Source: Acidocella sp. (GTDB lineage: Bacteria; Pseudomonadota; Alphaproteobacteria; Acetobacterales; Acetobacteraceae). From it: a DNA stretch of 38,679 bases. Each line of letters opens with the position of its first letter. The stretch's first letter is position 1. The translations under genes and the position numbers were made by a program. The stretch is from NCBI GenBank assembly GCA_026224875.1, contig JAMFRU010000079.1, forward strand, positions 1 to 38,679. Direction: 5' to 3'. Below the pieces are notes generated by a model. That model was not told the DNA's origin and searched no databases. It worked only from the letters and a program-made list of their open reading frames with translations. Positions 31,534 through 34,853 of the stretch are shown here, one piece after another.

Positions 31534-31606
31534 ACCTATTGATTTAACTATCAAAACGCTTGCTCTACACCTACTTTGGTGGCATACTGCCAACAGTTAA
31601 GGAGTG

Positions 31607-31680
31607 AGCCCCCAGCAGGACTCGAACCCGCGACCCCCGGTGTACTAGACCGGCGCTCTATCCAGCTGAGCTATGGAGGC
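31607..31680 (-). tRNA. tRNA with anticodon AGT (read as Thr)
   Basis: The minus strand forms a complete cloverleaf of 74 bases: acceptor GCCTCCA/TGGGGGC, D-arm GCTC/GAGC with loop AGCTGGATA, anticodon stem CCGGT/ACCGG with loop CTAGTAC, and T-arm GCGGGTTCGAGTCCTGC. CCA is not encoded and the discriminator is T. The anticodon AGT (codon ACU) is rare in bacteria, where Thr is normally read by GGT, TGT and CGT. G1-C72, C2-G71, G35 and U36 agree with ThrRS identity, while the D-loop GGATA looks like tRNA-Arg. It is therefore a divergent gene or a decaying copy. Confidence 0.75.
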
Positions 31681-32609: not shown

Positions 32610-33512
32610 CTAGCGCCCAATCGCAGCCATAAACTCCGTCCACTCCCGCTTAGACAACCCCGACCCAGCCTGCTCAACAGCCTCGCCAGCCAAAATCTTG
32701 GTCAAACTTTCCATCATCTTCGCCGAGAACGTCACCGCCCCCAGCCGATAATCGCAGAACGCCTTATACGACAACGGCACCCAGGCCGCGGCCATCTCCA
32801 GCATCGCCTCGGCATAAACGCGTATCTCATACTGCGCATGCCCATCCGCCCGCAGCCGCAAAAACCCGAACAGATTGTGTAAATCCGTCTTCCAGTACCA
32901 TTGCGTATAGGTGTTGAGCGTCAAATTCATCCGCGCCAGCTCACGCGCCAGCCCAACCCCCTCGCCCAGCATTTCCTCATAATGCTCGTAAGTCTGGTCC
33001 GCATCCTGGCGCAGCAGCGTCAACACCCGCTCAGCCGTGGCCGCATCCAGCACCTCACCGCGCCCCTGCCGGTTGTCGGTGGACTGCGCCGCCATCTGCT
33101 CCGGCGAGGGCAGATAAAAATCCTTGTCCATAATCGAATACCGCGCCGAATACTCGTTCACATTCGCCGTGCGGTGGCGGATCCACTGGCGGGCCACAAA
33201 AATCGGCAGTTTCACATGGAATTTTATCTCGCACATCTCAAACGGCGTGGAGTGGTAATGGCGCATGAGGTAGCGGATCAGCCCCTCATCCTCCAGCGCC
33301 TTGCGCGTGCCCCGCCCGTAGGAAACACGGGCCGCCTGCACCACGGCGGCATCATCGCCCATGTAATCCACCACGCGGACAAAGCCGTGGTCCAGCACGG
33401 GCACGGCTTTAAACAGGTATTCCTCCAACGCCGGCACGGTCGGCCGCAGGGTGGAATGGGACGTATGGCGGGCGGCGTCGATTTCCGATGCCTGTTCTGG
33501 GGTCAGGGTCAT
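32610..33512 (-). CDS. thyX: Flavin-dependent thymidylate synthase
   Basis: 300 residues. [15 protein letters not shown] at 112-126 is the ThyX signature (RHRxxSxNExSxRY) with N117 in place of the usual Ser. The enzyme methylates dUMP to dTMP using methylene-tetrahydrofolate, FAD and NADPH and works as a homotetramer. Other family stretches are [24 protein letters not shown] and [25 protein letters not shown]. The C-terminus ([23 protein letters not shown]) is intact. The ATG lacks an obvious ribosome site. It is divergent from ssrA, starting about 45 bases from the presumed ssrA transcript. Confidence 0.97.
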
Positions 33513-33555
33513 AAAAGCAGTCTTTCACATTCCACGATTCGCACCTATATAGAGG

Positions 33556-33885
33556 GTGCTGGCTTGCCGGCTATGGTGATAAACGGTGCGTGGAATAAAC
33601 ATTGTGGACCCGGGGGCAGTACCCGGCGCCTCCACCATTATTCCTGGCGGACTTGATTCAGACTACGCAGCTAACGCTGCTTCGTCATCAGGACCGCTCG
33701 GAGCTATGGGGGCGAAATAGACTCGACACGTGTGGTAAAGACCCATCTTTTGCTCGGCATTGTACCGCCGTTATCGGGCTATACCTTAAATGCGAACGAT
33801 AATAACGTAGCATTCGCGGTCGCTGCCTAAACAGCAGCTAAGCGCGGTTCGGGGGGCACCGGGCAACAGAAGCCCCCCACTCGCT
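33556..33885 (+). ncRNA. ssrA: tmRNA, circularly permuted two-piece form
   Basis: The acceptor piece comes first. A T-arm CCGGG-GGCAGTA-CCCGG (33610-33626) runs into CGCCTCC, A and CCA ending at 33637. After a spacer with a GCAGC-TAAC-GCTGC hairpin, the coding piece starts at 33708 with GGGGGCG, which pairs with CGCCTCC over seven positions, including the G3-U70 alanine pair; GACTCGAC follows as the D-like domain. The tag frame at 33792-33830 reads ANDNNVAFAVAA then TAA. GGGGGGC/GCCCCCC downstream forms the last helix. This is the alphaproteobacterial permuted layout; it rescues stalled ribosomes with SmpB. Outer ends are approximate: a TATATA box at 33546-33551 suggests the 5' end. Confidence 0.93.
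33792..33830 (+). other. tmRNA tag reading frame
   Basis: Resume codon GCG, then codons giving ANDNNVAFAVAA and TAA. The ending AVAA is the ClpXP-type degradation signal. The opening ANDN is shared with other alphaproteobacterial tags. Confidence 0.9.
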
Positions 33886-33894
33886 CCCCACTCT

Positions 33895-34017
33895 CGAAAA
33901 CCTATTATGGTGAGTCGCATGGCGGTGATTTGTGAGCACCGGAGCGGAGCGTACGCTTGTACGTGAGCACCGGAGCGCAGCAAATCGCCGTCAGGCGGCC
34001 GCCATAATAGGTTTTCG
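33895..34017. repeat. Nested palindromic element with internal direct repeats
   Basis: The ends CGAAAACCTATTATGG (33895-33910) and CCATAATAGGTTTTCG (34002-34017) are perfect 16-base inverted repeats. Inside, GGCGGTGATTTG-like and CAAATCGCCG arms pair imperfectly. Inside those, GTGAGCACCGGAGCG occurs twice (33932-33946, 33963-33977) flanking GTACGCTTGTAC. It has no coding potential and lies exactly between the ssrA 3' end and the small-RNA terminator. It resembles a miniature non-autonomous element or a large REP-like unit. Confidence 0.85.
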
Positions 34018-34020
34018 GCG

Positions 34021-34049
34021 AAAAAAAAGGCGGCGCATAAAGCGCCGCC
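34021..34049 (-). terminator. Intrinsic terminator of the small RNA
   Basis: On the minus strand GGCGGCGC (34049-34042) and GCGCCGCC (34036-34029) form a perfect 8-base stem, with loop TTTAT, followed by T8 (34028-34021). This is the clearest intrinsic terminator in the window. It may also end ispF read-through. Confidence 0.9.
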
Positions 34050-34098
34050 AAGTTTAGGGAGGAAACGTCCAAGAAATAGGAGAGCAAGCTCATCCTAT
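34021..34098 (-). ncRNA. Candidate trans-acting small RNA, about 78 bases
   Basis: Read on the minus strand from 34098: a 5' hairpin ATAGGA-(T)-GAG-CTTG-CTC-TCCTAT closed by a stable CUUG loop, then an unpaired stretch TTCTTGGACGTTTCCTCCC containing an anti-Shine-Dalgarno CCTCCC, then the GC-rich stem GGCGGCGC/GCGCCGCC and T8. A TATAAT box lies 7 bases before the presumed start. This is the standard build of a Hfq-type alphaproteobacterial small RNA that blocks ribosome binding. A frame beginning MSLLSYFLDVSSLNLAALYA runs through it, so a coding role cannot be fully excluded. Homology to a named family is not claimed. Confidence 0.75.
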
Positions 34099-34104
34099 GG
34101 GTCA

Positions 34105-34110
34105 ATTATA
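34105..34110 (-). promoter_or_regulatory. -10 box of the small RNA
   Basis: TATAAT on the minus strand, 7 bases before the base where the 5' hairpin begins. No good -35 TTGACA-like hexamer is seen at 16-18 bases, so an activator or another sigma factor may be involved. Confidence 0.6.
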
Positions 34111-34256
34111 TACGGGAAGAATTCCTGCCGGGACACTCATGATTTCGCAGTGCAGCAATGAAGATTTGCTGTCCGCGATGTAATTTTTTACACACACACT
34201 ACCGGTTCCGGCGTCATACTGCAGTATCCACCCTCGTTTTGGGTCATCCGTTGATT

Positions 34257-34748
34257 TTATTCATCATCCGGAACCAGCACTATAACCGCCGCCTGCGCCG
34301 CTATGCCCTCGCCGCGCCCGGTAAAGCCCAGTTGCTCGGTGGTTGTCGCCTTCACTGAAATCCGGCTTTCGGCCACCCCCAAAAGCTCCGCCAGCCGCGC
34401 CCGCATCGCCGGCGCATGCGGCGTTATCTTCGGCCGCTCACATATAATAGTGATATCCGCATTGGCCAGCCTGCCGCCGCGCGCCGCAATCCGCCCCGCC
34501 GCATGCCGCAAAAACCGCGCGCTATCCGCATCTTTCCAGGTATTCTCACTCGGCGGAAAATGCCGCCCGATATCCCCCTCCGCCAGCGCGCCATAAATCG
34601 CATCGCACAAAGCATGTATCCCCACATCCGCATCCGAATGCCCGGCCAGCCCCTTCTCATGCGGCACATCCACGCCGCAGATGATCAATTTTCGCGCCTC
34701 GGCGAATGCATGCACGTCAAACCCGGTTCCGATCCGCGGAATCATCAT
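34257..34748 (-). CDS. ispF: 2-C-methyl-D-erythritol 2,4-cyclodiphosphate synthase
   Basis: 163 residues from ATG 34748 (AGAGGGG about 6 bases upstream); the longer frame from 34796 adds unrelated residues. It catalyses the fifth step of the MEP isoprenoid pathway, releasing [14 protein letters not shown] carries zinc ligands D11 and H13; [16 protein letters not shown] carries H45, the third ligand. [11 protein letters not shown] and [21 protein letters not shown] are typical, the latter being the CMP-contacting end. Many alphaproteobacteria encode a fused IspD-IspF; here only the F domain exists, so ispD must be elsewhere. It is divergent from dusB. Confidence 0.97.
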
Positions 34749-34853
34749 TTTTACCCCTCTTACGGGCAGATGTACGGTGTGCGCGCGAAGCGTCAACCTT
34801 TATGCTCAGTGGTCATTGCGCCTTGCCCGTCCCGGCTCTAATTTGCACAAATC

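Follow-up and report, generated by a model that had tools for sequence, protein, structure and literature searches.

The alpha-r8 small RNAs are described as carrying a single-stranded UUUCCUCCCU on the 3' side of a weak hairpin, together with a Rho-independent terminator; most single copies adjoin the FGase gene, additional copies lie elsewhere in genomes, and the characterised members named in the cited text are MmgR and SisA-D only (PMC12559287). MmgR of Sinorhizobium meliloti, the sole alpha-r8 copy described in that species, is a 77-nt, Hfq-dependent RNA that limits PHB accumulation and whose transcription is repressed by AniA (PMC7143759). The regulator, PhaR (AniA), bound the mmgR promoter in EMSA, with a motif given as WNWD2NYGCRNYGCRNH2WNW and a site placed 13 from the start (PMC12542648), while a looser PhaR consensus, GC-N3-GC, comes from a Bradyrhizobium study (PMC10888616). 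SisA of Caulobacter crescentus is reported to pair through the 10-mer upstream of the start codon and to repress a wide range of mRNAs together with Hfq (PMC12559287). A 2005 paper presented the corresponding Rfam family, RF00519 (suhB/mmgR), as probably a small RNA and noted a putative promoter and terminator, multiple copies in a genome and no particular neighbours (PMC1273637). In a 2010 survey the family appears among the cis-encoded antisense RNAs, and several matches are given for S. meliloti (PMC2873474). Its full Rfam name is 'Makes More Granules Regulator RNA (mmgR)'.

We compared with these systems an element on the minus strand of a 38,679-nt stretch of Acidocella DNA, referred to below as the window. 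Positions 34098-34021 score 51.5 bits with the RF00519 model, whose cut-off is 41 (E = 6.8e-8 over the entire window), and the alpha-r8 hallmark is present as an exact match between the 5' hairpin and the terminator.

Parts of the small RNA gene and its family

The gene was resolved into the following parts.

34021..34098, minus strand: predicted alpha-r8 (mmgR/SisA-type) small RNA of about 78 nt (RF00519 match, fold and model R1)
34105..34110, minus strand: -10 box TATAAT, read from the sequence, with a weak -35
34076..34098, minus strand: 5' hairpin of 9 pairs and one bulge, with a CUUG loop in the window copy (fold, covariation)
34056..34065, minus strand: TTTCCTCCCT, the alpha-r8 10-mer, of anti-Shine-Dalgarno character (exact match)
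34021..34049, minus strand: intrinsic terminator with an 8-bp all-G/C stem, a 5-nt loop and T8 (pattern search, covariation)

The ends at 34098 and 34021 were inferred from the start of the hairpin and the T-run, and 6 bases separate the -10 box from the hairpin start. CCTCCC occupies 34062-34057 within the 10-mer, the terminator stem-loop 34049-34029 and the T-run 34028-34021. Folding of 34098-34021 gave -28.8 kcal/mol (z = -5.0), a stability reached by none of 200 shuffled sequences.

The sequence-only reading had proposed a separate small RNA gene comprising a -10 box, a hairpin, an anti-Shine-Dalgarno stretch and a terminator, and the above-cut-off RF00519 match, the fold and the covariation described below all support it; its minus-strand placement of TATAAT, hairpin, CCTCCC, 8-base GC stem and T8 proved correct on re-reading. 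The promoter stands in part. TATAAT is present, and a TATA-containing hexamer was found by pattern upstream in 35 of the 37 orthologs on the ispF side, but no sigma-70-like -35/-10 pair passed the pattern scan (1.0 expected), so the -35 is judged poor. Similarly, the proposed CUUG hairpin covaries as a hairpin, yet the CUUG loop itself occurs in only 12 of the 37 orthologs. CCTCCC had been taken as unpaired, which holds apart from a weak 3-bp helix (GGA/UCC) that, in the minimum-free-energy and consensus folds, involves three of the ten bases; in the centroids, two pairs of this helix are retained in one fold and none in another. What did not survive is the idea of a previously undescribed kind of RNA, the family being the known RF00519/alpha-r8.

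The structure follows the family description, with the hairpin 5' of the 10-mer and the Rho-independent terminator 3' of it, although the hairpin is longer and lies further 5' than the helix of the RF00519 model. Of the four pairs of that short Rfam helix, only three form in the window RNA, one of the four being non-standard, and they compete with the longer 5' hairpin. The same divergence separates the window RNA from suhB of Agrobacterium tumefaciens: relative to the suhB model it has a reduced short 5' helix and, further 5', a longer hairpin that covaries, whereas the multiple copies, the lack of specific neighbours, the putative promoter and terminator and the core in unstructured regions are alike (PMC1273637). 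The closest likeness to MmgR lies in the 10-mer, the terminator and the PhaR/AniA-type promoter site (PMC7143759, PMC12542648, PMC12559287), and the two RNAs are of nearly one length; MmgR, however, has no sibling, and the window copy is one of several. In this respect Acidocella resembles C. crescentus, where SisA-D are sibling copies with an identical 10-mer, a hairpin and a terminator, one of them beside FGase (PMC12559287). The window copy is not beside FGase, the usual place of single alpha-r8 copies, and a second copy in the same genome is; we do not treat this adjacency as membership-defining because extra alpha-r8 copies are described elsewhere in genomes (PMC12559287).

On this sequence evidence the minus-strand element is a real small regulatory RNA of the known alpha-r8/mmgR/SisA family and not a new class. 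Other weak Rfam matches, among them SorX, SorY and GcvB, all fell under their cut-offs. A sub-cut-off RF00519 match was also obtained in an unrelated control genome, Thermus composti, so weak matches to this family can arise by chance. Literature searches on mmgR, RF00519, PhaR, Acidocella small RNA and Acetobacteraceae suhB/mmgR listed, by title or summary, no paper describing it for Acidocella; as a phylogenetic study of the alpha-r8 family from 2016 may have included Acetobacteraceae genera, we make no firm claim of absence. Within that scope, what is new here is the Acidocella-specific copy on the ispF/ssrA side and how widely the RNA is associated with a PhaR-type core; the family itself is known.

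Copies, covariation and genomic neighbourhood

The copy in the window has the following neighbours.

33519..33881, plus strand: ssrA (alphaproteobacterial tmRNA), convergent neighbour (RF01849, 256.5 bits; ARAGORN)
34257..34796, minus strand: ispF (YgbB family), upstream neighbour, ORF limits (Pfam PF02542)
32610..33512, minus strand: thyX (Thy1 family), beyond ssrA (Pfam PF02511)
33895..34017, no strand assigned: imperfect palindrome, a dispersed repeat lying between ssrA and the small RNA terminator, outside the small RNA (repeat search)

The 123-nt palindrome gave 22 rows in its own genome, two of which are the element itself on each strand, and it resembles elements of the MITE or REP type. 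Elsewhere in the window, ARAGORN placed a tRNA-Thr with anticodon AGT at 31606-31680, which is unusual, since bacterial tRNA-Thr seldom has A as the first base of its anticodon.

Three RF00519 matches were found in the genome of the window: the window copy (51.5 bits), a copy on contig C113 (45.9 bits) that is convergent with the FGase gene, in the canonical alpha-r8 place, and a copy on contig C4 (38.8 bits, under the cut-off). The C4 copy (L003 1501-1580) retains the full 10-mer, and a homolog of the gene that adjoins it also adjoins a copy in the congener locus L085. Across 61 genomes RF00519 was matched in 47, comprising all 37 Acidocella genomes and 10 of the 24 others. Loci were fetched for RF00519 matches above the cut-off, with the addition of L085 and some class-level loci below it. 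Among the 72 oriented loci, the ispF-side copy is represented in 37/37 Acidocella genomes, at one locus each, and the FGase-side copy by 26 loci; the nine left out (L003, L004-L007, L025, L083, L084 and L085) are class-level, have a flank without ispF or FGase, or are a third weak copy. In the genome of one family member, three tandem matches to the alpha-r8 model, about 250-270 nt apart, were observed at G117:C4:165033-165631 (first copy in L200).

The 37 ispF-side copies (32 distinct rows) maintain their structure, as 98.7% of 537 cells are paired and both partners have changed in 7 of the 17 pairs, the covarying stems that the sequence-only reading had put forward as a check. Double-changed cells number 41, against a mean of 12.1 in shuffled alignments and at most 2 when the structure was slid along the 37 copies. 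Both-side changes affect 5 of the 9 pairs of the 5' hairpin (97.5% of cells paired over the distinct rows) and 2 of the 8 pairs of the terminator stem (100% paired). A mixed alignment, A2, gave 8 pairs changed on both sides with 43 such cells and overlaps the first alignment in part; it combines all 26 FGase-side rows with 15 of the 37 from the ispF side, which were picked arbitrarily and leave out the gapped L021, so that its 100% pairing is flattered by the choice of rows. One of five pair measures, the number of further pair types, did not rise above the shuffles (11 versus 11.4; in A2, 11 versus 13.3). The 10-mer is present in all 37 ispF-side and all 26 FGase-side copies, and the 27-nt stretch around it is invariant in both sets.

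It had also been suggested that the position next to ssrA is a conserved neighbourhood. This is so for thyX and ssrA, since a tmRNA was found in 18 of the 20 Acetobacteraceae thyX loci scanned with Rfam (80 fetched), but the small RNA was seen there only on Acidocella-type contigs. Model R1, built from the 37 ispF-side copies and matching the window at G000:C2:34021-34101, matched strongly at 3 of the 80 thyX loci (L104, L106 and L107), all on Acidocella-type contigs, and at none on other contigs among these 80, some of which (e.g. L105) end before thyX; the Acidocella thyX locus L108 had no match to R1. At the ispF-side loci themselves, ARAGORN detected a tmRNA in the fetched flank of 25/37. 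Some flanks are short or run into the end of a contig, but a few loci of full flank also showed no ssrA. The ispF/ssrA-side copy thus looks like a genus-level acquisition.

Elements upstream of the small RNA and a proposed link to PhaR

Two elements were recognised upstream of the -10 box.

34146..34154, minus strand: PhaR/AniA-type box TGCACTGCG, core YGCRNYGCR (published motif; conservation)
34179..34192, minus strand: palindromic element TGTAAAAAATTACA, upstream of the PhaR-type box (pattern, one mismatch allowed)

The box lies within an extended PhaR-type match, TGCTGCACTGCGAAAT, at 34142-34157 on the minus strand and is centred at about -52 from the hairpin start, further upstream than the S. 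meliloti mmgR site. Compared by hand with the published 21-mer the window copy has one mismatch, and it is absent from the genome-wide matches to that motif. A single YGCRNYGCR core is common by chance, with 37 in the window where 56 are expected; the weight of the box therefore comes from its conservation across copies. The core falls within the 118 bases upstream in 34 of the 37 ispF-side copies, compared with 58 of 518 other windows at the same loci, and in 33 of the 37 it stands 84-91 bases before the conserved small RNA core. No PhaR-type core was found upstream in L012, L014 and L016, and L008 has one only further up. On the FGase side the core precedes the conserved small RNA core by 84-88 bases in all 26 copies (45 of 326 other windows), and 17 of them carry a second core at 65-68 bases. 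The reversed motif, applied to the same upstream stretches, matched in 5/37 ispF-side and 1/26 FGase-side copies.

The association extends beyond the genus. Taking the best-scoring model matches in other Acetobacteraceae genera, of which 26 of 27 were left after L212, with no readable core, was dropped, a PhaR-type core was present upstream in 25 of the 26 readable loci, at more varied distances, as against 91 of 494 control windows and 2 of 26 with the reversed motif. In the class-level set of 19 loci, two of them without a readable core, 9 of the 17 readable upstream stretches contained the core, versus 13 of 165 windows and 0 with the reversed motif. The account of sisA-D on which we draw reports no common upstream motif (PMC12559287), whereas both main Acidocella copies have the PhaR-type core.

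Throughout the own genome, 29 sites matched the full 21-mer and 14 its reversed control, for which reason many of these matches may be chance. A pattern fitted to our own alignment gave 6 sites against 0 reversed; the published motif, which is the independent test, shows the weaker contrast. This genome has a PhaR gene (on C23) and two phasin genes (on C138 and C140), and a full-pattern PhaR site was located upstream of the C138 phasin gene and a core site 68 nt upstream of phaR; near the C140 phasin gene no PhaR-type core was found. A further full motif sits between two divergent ORFs on C39 (L090 1501-1521), one of which presumably resembles a LysR-type regulator. By its core only, the small RNA promoter carries a predicted box of the PhaR (AniA) regulon.

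Patterns resembling TGTAAAAAATTACA were found at nearly one distance in 13 of the 37 ispF-side copies and in none of the 26 FGase-side copies, the corresponding controls being 0 of 623 and 1 of 390 windows, respectively.

Proposed mechanism, alternatives and the distribution of PhaR

We consider it highly probable that the element encodes a trans-acting alpha-r8 RNA which, expressed from its own promoter, acts with the help of Hfq as a Shine-Dalgarno-masking repressor of several mRNAs and is under the control of PhaR. An RNA of about 78 nt would be transcribed and assisted by Hfq, and its UUUCCUCCCU would cover Shine-Dalgarno regions and lower the translation of several mRNAs, as for Caulobacter SisA; by analogy with mmgR in S. 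meliloti, control of the promoter by PhaR (AniA), a PHB-granule-bound regulator, would let the RNA level track carbon storage. An Hfq-assisted Shine-Dalgarno blocker is the most likely function because the 10-mer and the terminator are the same and the background is one with Hfq. The Hfq gene was found in all 36 Acidocella congeners; it was not found in the own genome, a draft that is 95% complete, and we put this absence down to the draft assembly. A loss of Hfq from this genome was considered and dropped in view of the congeners. That the RNA may regulate many mRNAs, as the sequence-only reading had suggested, is plausible by the SisA precedent. Duplex energy did not support a phasin mRNA as a target, for the predicted duplex with its start region (-14.9) is not special, 7 of the 38 ORF starts in the window giving lower values. 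From a box at -52 PhaR might act as a repressor or as an activator. MmgR limits PHB, while for the window copy, beside ispF and ssrA, no PHB effect is known.

The alternatives bear on the origin of the transcript, on the role of this copy and on its class. Since ispF lies on the same strand and ends at 34257, about 160 nt upstream, with no minus-strand terminator-like site found between and no good -35 for the small RNA, the RNA might instead be released by processing from the 3' end of the ispF mRNA and retained by Hfq. The interval that separates it from ispF, however, holds both the TATA-containing -10 of nearly all orthologs and the PhaR-type core at its nearly constant distance. The same layout is seen in the 26 paralogs on the FGase side, which are convergent with FGase; in the own genome this paralog has a divergent gene on its other side, so that no host mRNA is apparent there. 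We therefore regard processing from ispF as unlikely. Somewhat less likely still is that the window copy is a redundant duplicate of the FGase-side gene without a regulatory role of its own, a reading suggested by the presence of the FGase-side copy in the genus with an identical invariant core. Against it, the ispF-side copy has been kept, 27-nt core included, in every Acidocella genome, with compensatory changes in its stems and a conserved upstream box.

An affiliation with the AbcR (alpha-r15) or SorX/SorY-type RNAs in place of alpha-r8 is suggested by the weak SorX and SorY model matches (27.5 and 21.3 bits) and by the partial homology of AbcR RNAs to RF00519 (PMC7143759); SorX and SorY (RF02784 and RF02651) share with the window RNA a ACCUCCCU-like core 5' of the terminator. 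Such an affiliation appears very improbable to us, as both Sor scores are far under the family cut-offs of 46.6 and 111, respectively, and AbcR1 and AbcR2, which also carry an anti-Shine-Dalgarno motif, in an unpaired stretch, and bind Hfq, are longer (120 and 114 nt), have two such motifs to the single one of the window RNA, and are described in tandem near lsrB (PMC7143759). A 66-aa ORF, MSLLSYF..., also overlaps the small RNA, and codon-level conservation of this frame had been named as the observation that would speak for a small protein gene. No such conservation was seen in the 37 orthologs: taking in each the last start-codon match before the conserved core, the spacing between the start codon in the hairpin and the 10-mer takes every one of the three phases (21, 10 and 6 copies), the ATG is altered in three (TTG, CTG and ACG), and several frames end after 12-13 codons, while the RNA pairs are maintained as the frame is scrambled. 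Conservation thus identifies the element as an RNA gene and not a small protein gene, and we give the protein reading next to no credence.

For the proposed control by PhaR, the distribution of PhaR offers a further comparison. In 120 order-level genomes the small RNA model matched 54 and the PhaR family 54, the two sets being identical in a count uncorrected for phylogeny, and each is represented in 21 of 37 genera. The filters of the small RNA search over these genomes were the stricter ones, and weak matches can be missed with them; for the 66 genomes without a match, the 20 listed in each search agree. A small number of joint losses, or even a single one, may lie behind the identical sets. 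An evenly balanced proposal, to our minds, is that the Acetobacteraceae alpha-r8 RNA is an obligate PhaR output and that the Acidocella copy on the ispF/ssrA side, with its single upstream box, provides the genus with two differently tuned PHB-responsive Shine-Dalgarno blockers. If this is true, PhaR control would be ancestral to the alpha-r8 family and not a rhizobial peculiarity, and the co-distribution of the RNA with PhaR, should it survive correction for phylogeny, would suggest that in this lineage the role of these RNAs is linked with carbon storage. What was an anonymous intergenic stretch is now a named regulator, for which PhaR and PHB are a testable input and the blocking of Shine-Dalgarno sequences is a testable output.
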